From positions 228-16,479 of the forward strand of contig DKBB01000320.1 in NCBI GenBank assembly GCA_002451015.1: a stretch of 16,252 nucleotides of DNA, read 5' to 3'. The position numbers were made by a program, and so were the translations under genes. The notes beneath the pieces are model-generated. The model was not told the origin of the DNA and made no database searches. It saw only the letters and a program-made list of their open reading frames with translations. Position 1 is the stretch's first letter; each line of letters starts with the position of its first letter. This DNA comes from Acidobacteria bacterium UBA6911 (GTDB lineage Bacteria; Acidobacteriota; UBA6911). This document shows positions 480-15,742 of this stretch, piece by piece.

Positions 480-989
480 ATGAAACAAGGTGGAATGAAG
501 GCCCGTAAAATGAATATCGCATCCAAATCCCTACTATTTATCCCTTTGATTGGGAGCATTTTTATTTCCTCCTGCTCAATCGCTGCTACGGAAATTCAGG
601 GGAGGGACCCATTCATCCCGCCTTCCGGTTATGTCATGAAATTTGAACGCACCGGCGGTTATTTCGGGTGGTATGACGCATTCTGGATTTATCCCGACGG
701 CAGAGTATTAAGCTCAGAGGGGAAAAAAGCAAAAATCCCTTCCGAAACGGTCCTGAGGTGGATGGAAACGATCCAGCCGGTCGAAATCCCGATCTTCAAG
801 AAAAAACCGTCCGTGCAGACATGGGGAAGGGATTGCTACCTGTACCGGATTACTGTTTATGGCCAATGTGGAACCAGCGTATTATCATTATCTTGCACGG
901 ACATTTACCTCCCCCGCACTCATGACGACGCCGAGGGGATGGATATCGGTCCGATCCGCGATACTCTGATGCACCTTCCGTGGAAATGA
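480..989 (+). CDS. Small lipoprotein of unknown function
   Basis: A protein of 169 residues if the ATG at 480 is used. It begins with basic residues, then a hydrophobic stretch (about 17-30) and a lipobox-like FISSC with Cys32. It is therefore probably exported and lipid-anchored with a mature part of about 138 residues. The mature part has an aromatic-rich segment (GGYFGWYDAFWIYPDG) followed by several Cys (YLYRITVYGQC, LSLSC) that could pair as disulfides. Both the ATG at 480 (AGAGG 7 nt upstream) and the in-frame ATG at 510 (GAAGG 8 nt upstream) have ribosome binding sites. The second would give a more usual signal-peptide length. I recognise no family. It stands alone, converging on the NTF2-like gene. 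Confidence 0.7.
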   Translation: MKQGGMKARKMNIASKSLLFIPLIGSIFISSCSIAATEIQGRDPFIPPSGYVMKFERTGGYFGWYDAFWIYPDGRVLSSEGKKAKIPSETVLRWMETIQPVEIPIFKKKPSVQTWGRDCYLYRITVYGQCGTSVLSLSCTDIYLPRTHDDAEGMDIGPIRDTLMHLPWK

Positions 990-7971: not shown

Positions 7972-8271
7972 AGTATCCGGAATGCGGCCGTTTTCCCTTT
8001 AGACCTCAAGATTATCTCTTATAATAACCTCGCGCTTTAAAAGATTTTCCTGAATCATGGGATCCGGGTTGCTGGGACCGCATCCGGTATTCGGAGGCAA
8101 TTGAAATATAGTAAATAAGAGTTATGGTTGAATGGTTTGTTCCGCTATGCAGTAAAAATATAGCAAAAGGCTGGTTTCCTTTTACACCGGAAACGGAAGG
8201 CCGACACGTGGGCAGGATTCACATCCTCCCCGTTAAGTAAGGTAGTAAATACATTGCGAAGGAGTTTTTTT
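7972..8271 (+). promoter_or_regulatory. Leader and promoter region of the AOR-selenoprotein operon
   Basis: 300 nt with no coding frame of note. Possible sigma70-like elements are TTGAAA (8101-8106) with TATGGT (8123-8128), spacer 16, but this is weak. Downstream the sequence can fold several ways: AAAAGG/CCTTTT (8165-8170 with 8178-8183), the competing stem GTTTCC/GGAAAC (8174-8179 with 8189-8194), and a strong hairpin GGG-(C)-AGGAT/ATCCT-CCC (8210-8230) with loop TCAC. Mutually exclusive stems ahead of a Mo/W-enzyme operon suggest a regulatory leader. I could not match it to a known riboswitch consensus by eye. The ribosome binding site AAGGAG follows at 8259-8264. Confidence 0.3.
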
Positions 8272-9057
8272 ATGGCTGGAGACAAAAGAACGGATACGAG
8301 AAAAGCCAAAACTGCAAATTTCTCCAGGCGTGATTTCCTGGTCGGTGGCGGAGCTGCATTGGCTCTTTCCACTCCGGTAGCTGCGGCTGTTCCGGCAACA
8401 TCCCCTGCGCCTGCAAAAACCGATCATGCCGTATCCGCAGGATACCTGGTCTACGACAGTAAGAAGTGCGCGGGTTGCACGACCTGCATGCTTGCCTGTT
8501 CATTAACCCATGAGGGCGTTCAGAGCCTGACGCTGTCACGCATCCAGATAATCCAGGATTCGTTCGGTAAGTTCCCCAATGACGTCAAAATGGCACCCTG
8601 CCGGCAATGCATGACGCCGGTGTGTGTGGAGCGATGCCCTGTAGGAGCCGCTTTTGTGGATAAGGAAAATGGAAATGTCCGGAGGATCGACAGTGAAAAA
8701 TGCATCGGCTGCCAGACCTGCCTCTCCGCATGCCCGCAACAGCCGCACCGTCCGGTCTGGAACCACAAGATCAAAAAGTCCATGAAGTGCGATCTCTGCA
8801 TCGATACACCACACTGGAAGGAACCGGGTGGCGTCAACGGAAAACAGGCCTGTGTGGAGTCCTGCCCGATGAAGGCCATCAAATTAGCATTAAAAACTCC
8901 CGAACAGAAAGAGACCGAAGGCTACGACATCAATCTTCGGAACATACACTGGATAAACCTGGGACTGGTGGACTCGAGCACGGTGGAACCGCCCGCATTG
9001 GCCGACCAGCCGAAGCTGTTCTTCGGCGCACCGAAAACCGAACCCGAGGTGAAATAA
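8272..9057 (+). CDS. Tat-exported four-cluster iron-sulfur protein (DmsB/HybA/YdhY-like)
   Basis: 261 residues; AAGGAG lies 7 nt before the ATG at 8272 (an upstream in-frame TTG at 8254 has none). Residues 18-23 are SRRDFL, followed by an Ala/Gly-rich hydrophobic run, a twin-arginine signal. The body carries 16 cysteines in the four-cluster arrangement of DMSO-reductase-type beta subunits: C66-C69-C72-C76, C110-C113-C118-C122, C144-C147-C150-C154 and C173-C176-C194-C198, enough for four [4Fe-4S] clusters. It would pass electrons between the AOR encoded 38 nt downstream and another carrier. E. coli ydhY-ydhV pairs a comparable ferredoxin with an AOR homologue. The Tat signal puts it outside the cytoplasmic membrane, which is odd beside a signal-less AOR. 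Confidence 0.9.
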   Translation: MAGDKRTDTRKAKTANFSRRDFLVGGGAALALSTPVAAAVPATSPAPAKTDHAVSAGYLVYDSKKCAGCTTCMLACSLTHEGVQSLTLSRIQIIQDSFGKFPNDVKMAPCRQCMTPVCVERCPVGAAFVDKENGNVRRIDSEKCIGCQTCLSACPQQPHRPVWNHKIKKSMKCDLCIDTPHWKEPGGVNGKQACVESCPMKAIKLALKTPEQKETEGYDINLRNIHWINLGLVDSSTVEPPALADQPKLFFGAPKTEPEVK

Positions 9058-9095: not shown

Positions 9096-11174
9096 ATGAC
9101 AGGCGGATATACCGGAAAGATCTTAAGGGTGAACCTGACTACAAAATCAACCAGAAGTATTCCTACGGAAAAATATGAGGAATACGGCGGCGGCCACGGG
9201 ATGGGTTCCGCCATTTTTTTCGACCTGGTCGGCGATCAACTTCCTTTTGAAGCATTCGATCCAAGAAACCTCATTATAATGATGAACCACCCATTTGCCG
9301 GCACATTCATGCCCGGCTCGGGGCGTTGCGAGGTTCAGGGCCTGGCTCCGATGCTTCATCCGGTCGAATGGTTCGCACACAGCAATTTCGGAGGGCGTTT
9401 TACGGCTCAGCTGAAATTTGCCGGCTGGGACGGCATTGTGGTTGAAGGAGCGGCCGACGCTCCCGTCTGGATCAATATCGTCGACGACAAAGTCAAGATT
9501 GAGAGCGCCGACGGGATCTGGGGAATGGATACCTGGGACACCCAGGAAGAGATCTCCCGGCGCGTGATGCCCGGCTTGAAATATGGCGAATGGGCGCAAG
9601 TGGATGACCGCTTCACCACCCAGGTTCCTGCTGTGGTGTGCTGCGGGGTGGCCGGAGAAAACAGGAGCCGCATGGGCGCCCTGCTGCACGGTCCCGGCTC
9701 TCAAGCTGCACTGGGCGGTTTTGGCGGTGTCTTCGGCTCTAAAAATCTCAAGGCAATCAGCGCCATCGGTACGGGAGACGTACCCATAGCCGATCCTGAA
9801 GCGTTTATGGAAGCCCGGCTCTGGTTCCGCCAATTTCTGTGGGACGTGGACGATCCCCGCAGGAAGGATATGGTGGGCGGATTTTACTTCTGGGTCAACG
9901 GATCCCCCGCCGGTGCGAACGTAACGAATAACCCGTACTTCGGGGCCAACGCTCTACCCCTCGTGCCTGCGCGTGCGGCAGCCTGCGCTTCCTGCCCCCG
10001 GGGTTGTCGGCAACGACTGGCCAGCGGAGACAGCAATGAATCGGTCTGCGCTGGAACGGCAGCCGTCAAGCTGGAGGGCGCTTCCTTGAAGCAGACCCGC
10101 CAGGCCAACGACTGGGTGCAGAAATACGGGCTCGGCCACTGGCATTTCATGCCCATGCAGGGTTATGTCCAGTCGCTCTATAACAGGGGGCTTCTGGGTA
10201 AAGGAAAGAAGATCGAATGCGACCTGCCGATGGATCAGTACGGCACCATGGGATTTCTGGAAATGCTTATGAACCAGATTGCCACCCGCCGCGGGATAGG
10301 CAATGACTTGACCGAGGGTCTGGCCCGGGCTGCAATAAAATGGGGAACTTATGAAGAGGATCTGAAATCCGGGGATCTCAATCTGGCGTATTGGGGAACC
10401 GCCATGCACTACGATCCCAGGTCTGAAGCCGAATGGGGTTTCGGGTCGCTGATGGGAGAGAGAGACCTAATGCTGCATGCAATCGCCAACTACCCTCTCC
10501 ACTGGATGCCACAGGCATCCGAGATGGTCGGCAAAGAACCGTACCTGTCCGCCGAACAGGCGGTTCAAATTACGGCGGATGCCATGATTCCCTACGATGG
10601 GGATGTCTTCATGCTCGATTACAGTGACGGTCCCACCGGAATCTATTCGGAACATAAAGTCAAGCAGGTCGCCTGGGTCAAACACTACGAAAAATTCTGG
10701 ATCGGCTCCAACGGCTTCTGCGGCTGGAGATGGCCCATGTGCTTCACATGCAACTCCGCCGACAACCGGGGGGCGACGCCCCAGGCCGAACCCAGGTTTT
10801 TCAATGCTATTACGGGAAAGAACATTACATTCGCCGACGGCATGGAACTGGGTCGCAAGATCTTTACACTGGACAGGGCAATATGGACCCTGCAGGGGAG
10901 GGACCGTGACATGGAAGTCTTCCCGGATTATATCTACGAGAAGGATTCCGGGGGGGAATTGCTGCCGATGTACGATCATACTACCAAAAAATGGTCGTAC
11001 TCGATGAGTTCCGGACGAAAGCTGGATCGCGCCAAGGTCGAATCGTGGAAGACAAAGTTTTACGATTTTGAGGGCTTTAACACCAAAAACGGTTGGCCGA
11101 CAAGAAAGACCCTCGAGGATATGGACCTGAAGAAAGTGGCTGATGTTATGCAGAATAAAAACAGGTTGGGCTAG
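9096..11174 (+). CDS. AOR-family tungsten/molybdenum-pterin oxidoreductase
   Basis: 692 residues; AGGAGG 7 nt before the ATG. The N-terminal AFOR domain is clear: GYTGKILRVNLTTKST, GGHGMGSAIFFD, PGSGRCEVQGLAPM, FGGRFTAQLKFAGWDGIVVEG, then AGENRSRMGALL and FGGVFGSKNLKAI. The cluster motif C297-x2-C300-x3-C304 and a distal Cys549 (PMCFT) match the [4Fe-4S] ligands of Pyrococcus AOR, and the YDPR-SEAEWGFG segment matches its pterin-proximal DPRGAEGHG. It should hold a bis-pterin W or Mo site and carry out a low-potential oxidation or reduction such as aldehyde/acid. It is longer than classical AOR (about 605) and divergent: the usual AAGRGG reads QAALGG (203-208), losing an Arg. No signal peptide is visible. 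The substrate cannot be inferred. Confidence 0.9.
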   Translation: MTGGYTGKILRVNLTTKSTRSIPTEKYEEYGGGHGMGSAIFFDLVGDQLPFEAFDPRNLIIMMNHPFAGTFMPGSGRCEVQGLAPMLHPVEWFAHSNFGGRFTAQLKFAGWDGIVVEGAADAPVWINIVDDKVKIESADGIWGMDTWDTQEEISRRVMPGLKYGEWAQVDDRFTTQVPAVVCCGVAGENRSRMGALLHGPGSQAALGGFGGVFGSKNLKAISAIGTGDVPIADPEAFMEARLWFRQFLWDVDDPRRKDMVGGFYFWVNGSPAGANVTNNPYFGANALPLVPARAAACASCPRGCRQRLASGDSNESVCAGTAAVKLEGASLKQTRQANDWVQKYGLGHWHFMPMQGYVQSLYNRGLLGKGKKIECDLPMDQYGTMGFLEMLMNQIATRRGIGNDLTEGLARAAIKWGTYEEDLKSGDLNLAYWGTAMHYDPRSEAEWGFGSLMGERDLMLHAIANYPLHWMPQASEMVGKEPYLSAEQAVQITADAMIPYDGDVFMLDYSDGPTGIYSEHKVKQVAWVKHYEKFWIGSNGFCGWRWPMCFTCNSADNRGATPQAEPRFFNAITGKNITFADGMELGRKIFTLDRAIWTLQGRDRDMEVFPDYIYEKDSGGELLPMYDHTTKKWSYSMSSGRKLDRAKVESWKTKFYDFEGFNTKNGWPTRKTLEDMDLKKVADVMQNKNRLG

Positions 11175-11256: not shown

Positions 11257-13059
11257 ATGAAAAAAACTTATATAGGAACATTAATAATAGCCGCCACAGT
11301 GATCCTTGCCGTCGGATGCATGACTTCAGGAAATGTCACTCTGGAAGTGCTGAATCCGCGGGGAGAAATCGAACTGCCTTCCGTTTCGGCGCCCAGCGCC
11401 CGTATCGCCGATCTGGCCGGTAAAAAGGTCGGCCTCTACTGGAACGAAAAGCCTGGCGGAAATCACTTCTGGAATGGCATTGAACAACTCCTGAAAGAAA
11501 GGTTGCCGGAGACGACGGTTTTGCGATACTCCGGTGCTTTCGATCTTGGAGACGAGTTCGCGGCGAAGATAGCAAAGGAGACCGATGCGTTCCTTTACGG
11601 CGTCGGAGACTGAGGATCCTGCACATGGGCCGGCGTGTCCGGCTACTACAGGGTGGAACAACTCGGCAAACCCGGTGTTTATGTCTGCACCGACAACTTC
11701 GTACATGACGCAGAATCCGCCGCGGAAGATGTCGGCATGCCGAATTCGCGTATCGTGACCGTGAAGGCCGCGGATTATTACCGGCTCAGGGGTACCGACG
11801 AAGGGATCATTCCCGTTGCCGAGGCGGTCATTGACCAGCTTATCGATGGACTGACAAGACCGTTGACGCCGGAGGAGGCCAGCACCGAACCTGAAAAAGA
11901 GAATCTAGGGCCTCTCGAAGTTTCAGAGGAGTCCTACGCACGTGCCATTGAAAAGTTCAACGATATCTACCTGGACAATATGTGGGGGGACGGGTTGACG
12001 TTGATGCCCCCTACGAAAGAGGCGGTTGCGGCCATGCTTGCGGGCACCAGCCGCTCCCCGGATGAGGTCATCGGCACGGTCGCTCCCAAGAACGGTGTGG
12101 CCACCATTGAGAAGATAGCCGTCAACGCGGTGATGGCCGGAGCCAGGCCGGAATATCTGCCGATCATCATCGCCGCAATGGAAGGGATTACCGATCCCGA
12201 TTACGATGACCTGCATGTCATGACTTCCACCGGATCCTTTAATTTCGCCATCATGGTGACCGGGCCCATCGCGCAGGAACTCGAAATTAATTCCGGCATC
12301 GGTTTCCTGGGCTACGGATGGCGGGCGAATAGCACTATCGGGCGCGCTTTACGGCTTGCTCTGATCAACATCGGTCGTGTATGGCCCGGAGTGAACGATA
12401 TGGCCCTCGTCGGCCGTCCCTCACAGCAATTCTATGTCTTTGCGGAGAACCAGGAATTCAGTCCGTGGCCGCCGTTCCATGTCACCCAGGGATTCAAACC
12501 GGAGGACAGCTGCGTGACCGTATCCTCGGTTATGAGCGCCTCGGGCGATCTGCTTGGAGGTGGGGCTGTGGCAACATGGACACCACAGGATATCCTGGAT
12601 AGCGCCGCCCGCATGATGACGGAACCCCGGTGGGGTATGGCCACATGGAAGCGGGGAAGTTCCAACCCGGGCCCGTTCAAGTACATCCTCTTTTTCGAGC
12701 CTGTGCTGGCTCGGGAACTGGCCGGCCAGGGCCACGATCGCGCCAGTTTGCAGAAGTATATTTATGAACGTGCCGTCATTCCCTATGAGGAGCTGACACC
12801 CGCGGAAATCGCAAATGTTCAGCCCAGGATCGACTCGGGTGAGATCCCCCCGGACCGGGTTTCCACATTCAAAGGAGCATTGAAGCCGGGCGGGAAACTG
12901 CCCATGCTGGACAGGCCGGAAGACATCCGCATTGTCGTCGCGGGCGGGATCCCGGGCTATTCCTTCGCCATGTACTTCTGGCGCGAAGGTCTCTACGCGC
13001 CCACATCCGATCAGACAAAATTGATCCATGGTGCAACACTGACAGAAGCAGGACGATAA
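11257..13059 (+). CDS. UGSC-family selenoprotein, lipoprotein with fused C-terminal domain
   Basis: A single 600-residue gene with an in-frame UGA at codon 119 (11611-11613) read as selenocysteine. Residues 1-21 are a lipoprotein signal (ILAVGC, Cys21). Residues about 31-205 form the UGSC domain: VLNPRGEIELP, AGKKVGLYWNEKPGG, DAFLYGVGD, then Sec119-Gly-Ser-Cys122, and VYVCTDNF with Cys144. Sec and Cys122 form a CxxC-like redox pair, so thiol or selenenylsulfide chemistry is likely. Residues about 217-600 are a second conserved domain (MWGDGLTLMPPTKEAV, INSGIGFLGYGWRANSTIGRALRL, SPWPPFHVTQGF, IRIVVAGGIPGYSF) that I associate with UGSC proteins but cannot name. GAGGGG lies 7 nt before the ATG. 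A SECIS-like hairpin follows the UGA. The half after the UGA has no ribosome binding site of its own. The enzymatic reaction is unknown. Confidence 0.9.
11614..11653 (+). promoter_or_regulatory. Candidate bacterial SECIS element
   Basis: Immediately 3' of the UGA the mRNA can form a lower stem UCCUG/CAGGG (11617-11621 with 11649-11653, including one U-G pair), an internal loop, and an upper stem GCCGG/CCGGC (11629-11633 with 11639-11643) closed by the 5-nt loop CGUGU. The apical loop begins 20 nt after the UGA and has G in its second position. Both agree with the published general form of bacterial SECIS elements bound by SelB. It lies inside the coding region, as expected in bacteria. Confidence 0.75.
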
Positions 13060-14037: not shown

Positions 14038-15057
14038 CTAATCCCCGCTGAGACTGCCCGGCCAGGGAGTATTCGTGTGAAAGGGCGCCGAGGGGGCGAC
14101 CGCCAAGACCCGCCGGATCTTACCGTTTTCGATCAGGAATACCTCGGTTACCAGGATGCTGGAAGGACGGTTGAAGCCCGGGAACTGGTACGGACGGCCG
14201 TCGGACAGCGTTCCCTTGCTGACCGTGCCCTGGTCGAACACCGCATGCGCCCAGACAACGCCGCGCTCCCGGTCCACGAGCGGGAAACGGCGGCCGTGAA
14301 TGTTCTGGACGACAAAGTAGATGCCCAGTTTGAACTGCGACAGGCAGTCCATTGAAAAAAGATTGATCGTGTCCGGGGCTTCATTCGGGGGCCTGGGAAC
14401 GTTTGTGGTGTTCGACCCGTTTTCAATGCGATGGCAGTCGCTGGTGAATGGATAGGTACCGGTGCCGTTGACGCCCCGGCCGTCGTTTCTCTGCAGTCCT
14501 GAAAAATAGGCGTCGGCGACCGAAATCAGCTCCTGGCGCGACATCTGTTTTTCAGCCGGAATCGACTTGAACCATATGTCCTCGGGCTCGTACGGCTTGT
14601 CCATGTCCGCGATGTTGTTGGGACCGCCGCCGCCCGGTTTGAAGAAAACGCTCTCGATTTCGGTGATGCGTCCCAGCTGGATGCGCAGACGCAGGCTCAT
14701 CAGTATGGGCCCGCCGGCTTCGATCATGGTGCCCATGAAAGCAACCTGGCCGAATTCCGGATCGGCGAAGTAGTGCGAATATTTGCCGCGGCCCTCGACC
14801 GTCTTCCAGAAGCCGTCGCCGATCTCCAGGCGCTGGGCGTTCTCCGTGTACATCACGTCTTTGGACAGCGGCAATCCCGCCGGATCATGGGCGACCAGGG
14901 CGGAAAGGTACTGATTCAGCACGTTTTCCAGGCAGGCGCGGTCGCAGTTGAGCGGGATCGGCCCCGTGGATGCATAGACGTTGGGAGCCGGATAACCGGC
15001 GACAATTGCGGCGGTCATCAGAACTAGAATACTGACAATCGGGGGAGTCGAGCGCAT
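14038..15057 (-). CDS. Secreted DUF8021-like protein
   Basis: 339 residues with a Sec signal (VSILVLMTAAIVAG, cleavage likely near VYA|S). After the signal comes CDRACLENVLNQYLSALVAHDPAGLPLSKDVMYTENAQRLEIGDGFWKTVEG, a SnoaL/NTF2-like opening I associate with DUF8021 proteins. A second similar unit begins near RQELISVADAYFSGLQRNDG and ends with FLIENGKIRRVLAV, so it looks like two NTF2-like modules in tandem. Two Cys in CDRAC and others in TSDCHR and SMDC could form disulfides in the periplasm. AGGAG lies 9 nt before the ATG. It converges on the SDR gene. Its function is unknown; a ligand-binding or isomerase-like role is only a fold-based guess. Confidence 0.75.
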   Translation of the reverse strand: MRSTPPIVSILVLMTAAIVAGYPAPNVYASTGPIPLNCDRACLENVLNQYLSALVAHDPAGLPLSKDVMYTENAQRLEIGDGFWKTVEGRGKYSHYFADPEFGQVAFMGTMIEAGGPILMSLRLRIQLGRITEIESVFFKPGGGGPNNIADMDKPYEPEDIWFKSIPAEKQMSRQELISVADAYFSGLQRNDGRGVNGTGTYPFTSDCHRIENGSNTTNVPRPPNEAPDTINLFSMDCLSQFKLGIYFVVQNIHGRRFPLVDRERGVVWAHAVFDQGTVSKGTLSDGRPYQFPGFNRPSSILVTEVFLIENGKIRRVLAVAPSAPFHTNTPWPGSLSGD

Positions 15058-15175: not shown

Positions 15176-15742
15176 TCAGGTTTGGCGCATTCGGGCCCAA
15201 TCGATCGTCCATCTGTTCCTGGGTATGGATCGCCAGATCAGGCGTTTAAGCGGCGTGCCGCGGCAACAGTGATAATAAACCGCGGTTCGCTCGTAGAATC
15301 CGCGGGTGTGGTAGGTATTGGGAAATCCAAGCCCGTGGATGTCCAGGTGATGGCAGAACTCATGGCACAGCGTGCTGAGAAATGTGCCGAAGGAGGTCAC
15401 CCGCTTCTGGACCGCCGTTCGCATCCAGACCCGGATCAACGCGCTGTCTTCATGATAATCGCCGAAAAGCTCGCTCGATCCGGTTTCATACACGCGCAGC
15501 GGGCGCGCATCCAGCACACGCACTTTCGGCCGCGGTACCTTGAACAGACCAGCCGATTCCAGCATTAAGCCGTCACAGGTCGATTGAACCTGTTTTTTTA
15601 TTCCGGATTTCAGGGCGGATTCGATCAGGAGCGCAAGCGCGTGCAGCCGGTTTCCCCCGGGAATAGGAAGCATTGTCATTTGATCGCTGCGGTCGTATTC
15701 CGTGCGCCGTGTGATTATCCTTGGTCTGGGATCGGTAATCAT
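15176..15742 (-). CDS. Putative HExxH zinc metalloprotein
   Basis: 188 residues with no signal peptide. A helix in the C-terminal half carries LSTLCHEFCHHLD (H127-E128-x2-H131, followed by His132), the zincin HExxH core, and further on PNTYHTRGFYERTAVYYH supplies candidates for the third ligand (His145 or Glu151). The N-terminal half (RLHALALLIESALKSGIKK, VRVLDARPLRVYETGSSEL, DSALIRVWMRTAVQKRVTSFGTFLSTL) fits the small predicted metallopeptidases found in several Gram-negative phyla. An in-frame TGA two codons upstream limits the start to the ATG at 15742, although its ribosome binding site is weak. Substrate unknown. Confidence 0.7.
   Translation of the reverse strand: MITDPRPRIITRRTEYDRSDQMTMLPIPGGNRLHALALLIESALKSGIKKQVQSTCDGLMLESAGLFKVPRPKVRVLDARPLRVYETGSSELFGDYHEDSALIRVWMRTAVQKRVTSFGTFLSTLCHEFCHHLDIHGLGFPNTYHTRGFYERTAVYYHCCRGTPLKRLIWRSIPRNRWTIDWARMRQT

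Follow-up and report, generated by a model that had tools for sequence, protein, structure and literature searches.

Within the 16,252-nt stretch of DNA that was analysed (the window), an ATG at 11257, a TGA at 11611–11613 and a TAA at 13057–13059 share one forward-strand frame with no further stop inside (Table 1), which agrees with the preliminary description, where a 118-codon ORF and the frame open to 13059 had been taken as a single frame divided by the TGA alone. Gene callers give two products here, of 118 and 474 residues, and read-through translation gives one protein of 600 residues, with U119 (the position also assigned before) followed by Gly-Ser-Cys-Thr. The codons TGA GGA TCC TGC (11611–11622) specify the Sec-Gly-Ser-Cys order of the UGSC family (PF24696), and confirm the signature that had been recognised there. 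A strong anti-Shine-Dalgarno duplex (-11.9) was found within 20 bases before the start at 11257, against scores of -3.5, -2.0, -3.5 and -0.3 for the four in-frame starts listed downstream of the TGA as far as 11760 (11635, 11653, 11737 and 11755), in line with the earlier remark that the downstream half lacks a ribosome binding site. Elsewhere in the window, a 339-residue protein with a hydrophobic N-terminus (14038–15057, minus strand) matched no Pfam family and belongs to a cluster present in 20/74 compared loci, and two further proteins (480–989, plus strand, and 15176–15742, minus strand) had no Pfam family at E≤0.001.

Table 1. Features of the candidate selenoprotein locus, in window coordinates
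Feature	Position	Strand	Basis or remark
4Fe-4S ferredoxin-like protein, upstream	8254..9057	+	Possible electron carrier; association only
Aldehyde ferredoxin oxidoreductase (AFOR) homologue, upstream	9096..11174	+	AFOR_N and AFOR_C; start at 9096 chosen from the translation; association only
Candidate selenoprotein gene, complete	11257..13059	+	600 codons plus stop, with TGA as Sec codon 119
Putative export signal at the N-terminus, with lipobox-like LAVGC (residues 17–21)	11257..11325	+	Homologue N-termini
UGSC domain, residues 30–200, alternating strand-helix fold	11344..11856	+	Pfam match and structure model
In-frame TGA, probable selenocysteine codon 119	11611..11613	+	TGA kept in two relatives (L001, L002) and in family members
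Bacterial-SECIS-like hairpin, apical loop 11634–11638	11614..11654	+	Fold and silent-site conservation
C-terminal domain, residues 205–600	11869..13056	+	Encoded elsewhere by its own gene, next to a small UGSC gene

The Pfam UGSC profile matched the read-through protein with 92.8 bits (cut-off 25; residues 30–200, profile positions 1–171 of 172) and the separate halves with 39.1 and 27.0 bits, so that the domain spans the TGA and includes the Sec motif. The score against NCBIfam NF041046 was 78.6 bits, under its curated cut-off of 125, and the protein is therefore called a two-domain relative rather than an NF041046 equivalog. An AlphaFold2 (AF2) model of the UGSC domain was a confident alpha/beta structure of alternating strands and helices (pLDDT 92.7), in which Sec119 follows the third core strand and is placed with Cys122 at the N-terminus of helix 120–135. 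The C-terminal domain (CTD) was also modelled with confidence (pLDDT 90.6, pTM 0.92), with no clear PDB match for the model and no Pfam family above cut-off for this part of the window protein. In 15/30 matching genomes the UGSC and C-terminal domains were encoded by separate adjacent genes, some of these frames having a further stop, and an additional search gave more such cases. Near the N-terminus, a hydrophobic 12-mer was present in 106/120 of the homologous N-terminal halves listed (0/120 for an inner control), and the hydrophobic N-terminus was also lipobox-like in 58 of the 120. Judged from these N-termini, the two-domain protein is probably exported.

Two named relatives were identified, in a Deltaproteobacteria-labelled metagenome-assembled genome (MAG; L001, 81% identical) and an Acidobacteria-labelled MAG (L002, 90% identical), which share an isolate prefix and may stem from one sampling project. 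Both retain the TGA at the same codon with highly conserved flanks, and the DNA alignment with L002 extends upstream into the AFOR gene and downstream into the first part of an NmrA-like gene. For 437 codons the encoded amino acid is unchanged across the three genes, and 160 of these codons are themselves identical throughout; in codons 120–135 the figure is 11/13 (hypergeometric p 4.6e-4), and the best silent-site window of the gene covers codons 117–131 (12/13 identical). The protein databases mirror the split annotation that had been anticipated for this gene: 119/120 of the N-terminal-half proteins listed, the window's own included, end in GVGD (the following stop codon is not visible in proteins), and in a second list 56/120 of the proteins have 474 or 475 residues, approximately what translation from the first start past the TGA would give, which together indicate repeated splitting by gene calling. 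Half-proteins that end at the same place come from several sources, and at least a dozen further entries of the second list were full-length Sec-less relatives.

Directly 3′ of the TGA, a hairpin with the geometry of a bacterial SECIS element was found, as had been proposed before, with a stem of 11628–11633 paired to 11639–11644 and the loop CGUGU 21–25 nt after the TGA. Taken alone it is not exceptional compared with synonymous shuffles (z -0.91), and the statistics derive from the gene set as a whole, for which the 48 bases 3′ of the TGA in 71 Sec genes (the window gene and 70 others), and the matching stretch in 23 Sec-less paralogues, were folded against a background of synonymous-codon shuffles. 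Folds of the Sec genes exceeded those of their shuffles in stability (mean z -0.82, Wilcoxon p 2.8e-9) and folds of the Sec-less paralogues did not (mean z -0.03, p 0.52), with p-values that overstate independence since the genes are related. Simple rules for bacterial SECIS elements ask for a stem of at least 4 pairs, a G in the first two loop positions and a loop 16–37 nt from the UGA. At the set strength, such a hairpin was scored in 59/71 Sec genes (shuffles 66% on average) and was absent from the other 12, and was present in 9/23 Sec-less paralogues (shuffles 42%).

The reading of the TGA as Sec had been made to depend on a Sec machinery in the genome, and this was found in the genomes of the relatives: both (G001 and G002) have a tRNA-Sec with anticodon UCA, SelA and SelD, each SelD with an in-frame TGA. 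A complete SelB was found in G002, and G001 has a partial match, which covers model positions 1–270, stays under the cut-off and stops 270 bases short of a contig end. Three SelD loci with their own in-frame TGA were noted (L051, L052 and L053), and G002 has two such SelD matches.

Searching four genomes (G001, G002, G186 and G564) for PF24696 gave 23, 28, 17 and 27 members, respectively, 95 in total. A TGA was located inside the matched domain in 70 of these (one in 67, two in 3) and in 25 there was none, and at the homologous Sec column a TGA was present in 18, 20, 15 and 17 members, again 70/95. Another residue occupied this column in 23/95 (Ser in 14, Asn, Leu and Met in 2 each, Thr, Ala and Gly in 1 each), 2/95 had a gap, and Cys was found in none of the 95. 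Among the genomes of the class of G002, the family was detected in 13/38, and 10 of these 13 had at least 10 matches among those listed. A tree of 92/96 frames (4 were dropped for length or gap) requires a minimum of 5 switches between Sec and non-Sec, 3 of them forced by well-supported branches, and contains several long branches that leave its details unsure. Because many groups in the tree consist of one copy from each of several genomes, the expansion is in large part older than these genomes or has passed between them.

Motifs other than DUGSC that were seen in the paralogues are HUSxC, GUDxC (GUDGC and GUDSC), GUWGC, GUPGC, GUHGC and GUUGC, the last having two adjacent TGA codons in closely related UGSC-CTD genes of three genomes (L170, about 459, plus strand; L151, about 7352, and L201, about 6956, both minus strand). 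These adjacent TGA pairs suggest tandem selenocysteines. Separately, two TGA codons lie in the domain at G540:C14:2252-2773. The Cys at the fourth position of the motif is kept in 69/70 Sec members, with L172 (UGGA) as the exception, and in 2/23 Sec-less members, each of which has Leu in place of Sec; it is likewise kept in two more Sec-less relatives, P0077 and P0082, where Thr occupies the Sec column.

We conclude that the UGA at 11611 is very probably a selenocysteine codon within a single two-domain protein, the same conclusion that the preliminary description had drawn for a UGSC-family protein and with which the UGSC profile, the TGA of the relatives and the silent-site conservation agree. 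If the TGA were instead a true stop, with one transcript giving two proteins, the in-frame starts at 11635, 11653, 11737 and 11755 would open the second of these, as in the 118- and 474-residue products of the gene callers. These starts have weak ribosome-binding scores, the UGSC domain straddles the TGA, and neither silent-site conservation nor 3′ structure is accounted for; moreover, homologues with a true stop and separate genes at this position had been named beforehand as the case against Sec, and the family favours Sec, since 25/95 members run through the domain without a stop and 23/95 place Ser, Asn, Leu, Met, Thr, Ala or Gly at the column. Two separate proteins are thus very improbable. 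There is still less room for a nonsense mutation or sequencing error at a position 119 that normally holds a sense codon: Sec-less paralogues are indeed common (23/95 with another residue), set against two other genomes with a TGA at this codon between highly conserved flanks, half-proteins with the same end from several sources and a TGA in 70/95 paralogues. If TGA had been reassigned throughout the genome, for instance to Trp, an in-frame TGA that is read through would equally be explained; we regard this as scarcely credible given the UCA tRNA-Sec, SelA and SelD of the relatives. In the window 5/13 ORFs end in TGA, which is only suggestive of its normal use as a stop, because the ORFs were called with TGA as stop. 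The UGA is very probably decoded as Sec by tRNA-Sec and SelB, aided by the hairpin directly 3′ of it.

A profile of 71 UGSC Sec regions was aligned by hhalign with one of 5 GrdB and 5 PrdB-like sequences, giving a probability of 94% and a score of 54.9 across 68 columns with the Sec-x-x-Cys motifs in register. None of 200 column shuffles reached this score (maximum 22.0), the reversed profile gave 17.9, and masking the four motif columns left these 68 columns with a score of 36.0 and a probability of 58%. Writing U as C in both profiles favours the motif, and the GrdB/PrdB profile holds only 10 sequences. A direct match to PF07355 was absent from the 20 families matched at E≤1 by any of 85 UGSC members. 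The UGSC Sec region thus appears, from these profiles, to be remotely similar to the GrdB/PrdB-like Sec region, a resemblance that is apparently new. Genomes of the phylum of G001 also contain GrdB or short PrdB-like frames with an in-frame TGA and a U-x-x-C-like motif (L087–L090 and L092; L093, L094, L096, L099 and L100), with no stop counted within the stretch matched by PF07355.

Sec119-x-x-Cys122 would cap a helix of an alpha/beta domain resembling the GrdB/PrdB-like Sec region. The likeliest chemistry would be attack of the selenolate on an organic substrate followed by reductive cleavage, with Sec as nucleophile and Cys122 resolving the intermediate; the C-terminal domain would probably complete the active site or bind substrate, and paralogues would differ in substrate. 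Cooperation of the two domains is favoured by their occurrence as separate adjacent genes in other genomes. We offer this GrdB-like reductive chemistry of the two-domain protein tentatively. A selenoprotein that is a thioredoxin-fold thiol oxidoreductase, and not a GrdB-like enzyme, is the other reading of the same motif. In the thioredoxin topology the motif follows the first strand, and the AF2 model (pLDDT 92.7) places Sec after core strand three of its strand-helix alternation. The 50 VIA matches listed for this model are other alpha/beta domains (LacI/periplasmic-binding, receiver, lumazine-synthase, GH3, SGNH-esterase and similar folds), a list that excludes no fold. The UxxC motif itself, and the likely Trx-like fold stated for the UGSC family in the text of a 2008 survey (PMC2398784), speak for a thioredoxin-like enzyme; with the profile match to GrdB on the opposite side, we consider it unlikely. 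The confidently predicted alpha/beta structure, which departs from the thioredoxin fold put forward in that text, appears to be new as a prediction.

The upstream neighbours fit an oxidoreductase setting and prove nothing. An AFOR homologue is also directly upstream in L002, and AFOR matches were located within 5 kb of a UGSC gene in 8/83 cases, against 3.0 expected (p 0.011, uncorrected and with orthologous loci that are not independent), with p 0.084 at 8 kb; the proximity of AFOR to UGSC genes is thus weak. AFOR_C has 16–25 matches per genome in G001, G002, G186 and G564, fragments included, and forms a second large oxidoreductase set.

The UGSC family itself has been known since 2008, when 255 Sec and 21 Cys forms were given in the survey text (PMC2398784), and the absence of Cys reported here would be particular to the expanded branch, because those Cys forms occur elsewhere. 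According to Table 3 of a 2016 survey of >5200 organisms (PMC5029168), there were 33 UGSC-containing selenoproteins in 26 organisms, an average in that table of little over one per possessing organism, and single genomes here appear to hold 15–20. Our literature search found no report of a UGSC Sec expansion of 15–20 members per genome; this scale, in each of four genomes, appears to be new, as does a C-terminal domain with neither Pfam family nor clear PDB match. It is possible, and we propose it with reserve, that the expanded UGSC-CTD proteins form a large Sec-dependent reductase superfamily distantly related to GrdB/PrdB, with 15–20 substrate-specific selenoenzymes per genome in Acidobacteria- and Deltaproteobacteria-labelled lineages, including a GUUGC subgroup, in which Sec is not replaced by Cys and the non-Sec members presumably have another role. 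If real, this would change selenoproteome counts for these lineages, whose genes of this type are split by gene callers, and would provide a natural set of genes in which to ask why Sec is not exchanged for Cys, as well as a family whose C-terminal domain lacks a clear structural relative and whose plausible enzymatic cousin, GrdB, makes it open to test.

The interesting part beyond the known family is the probably exported two-domain form, the expansion and the GrdB resemblance. With the UGSC family (PF24696, NF041046) the window protein shares the domain, the U-G-S-C signature and the Sec position, and adds a C-terminal domain of ~395 residues and a likely export signal. The UGSC/Unknown_1 fusion of Figure S1A in PMC2398784 likewise joins UGSC to an uncharacterised conserved domain, a comparison drawn from its text and legend. 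Thioredoxin-fold UxxC selenoproteins have the UxxC motif in common with the window protein and differ from its predicted strand-helix order around Sec. GrdB (PF07355) and PrdB-like proteins share with UGSC the Sec-x-x-Cys motif (UGTCT and UGICN; one GrdB sequence has UGTGT) and a downstream E..G-x-P-x-V pattern, and GrdB differs in an additional Cys after the motif and in its upstream part; the similarity is remote.
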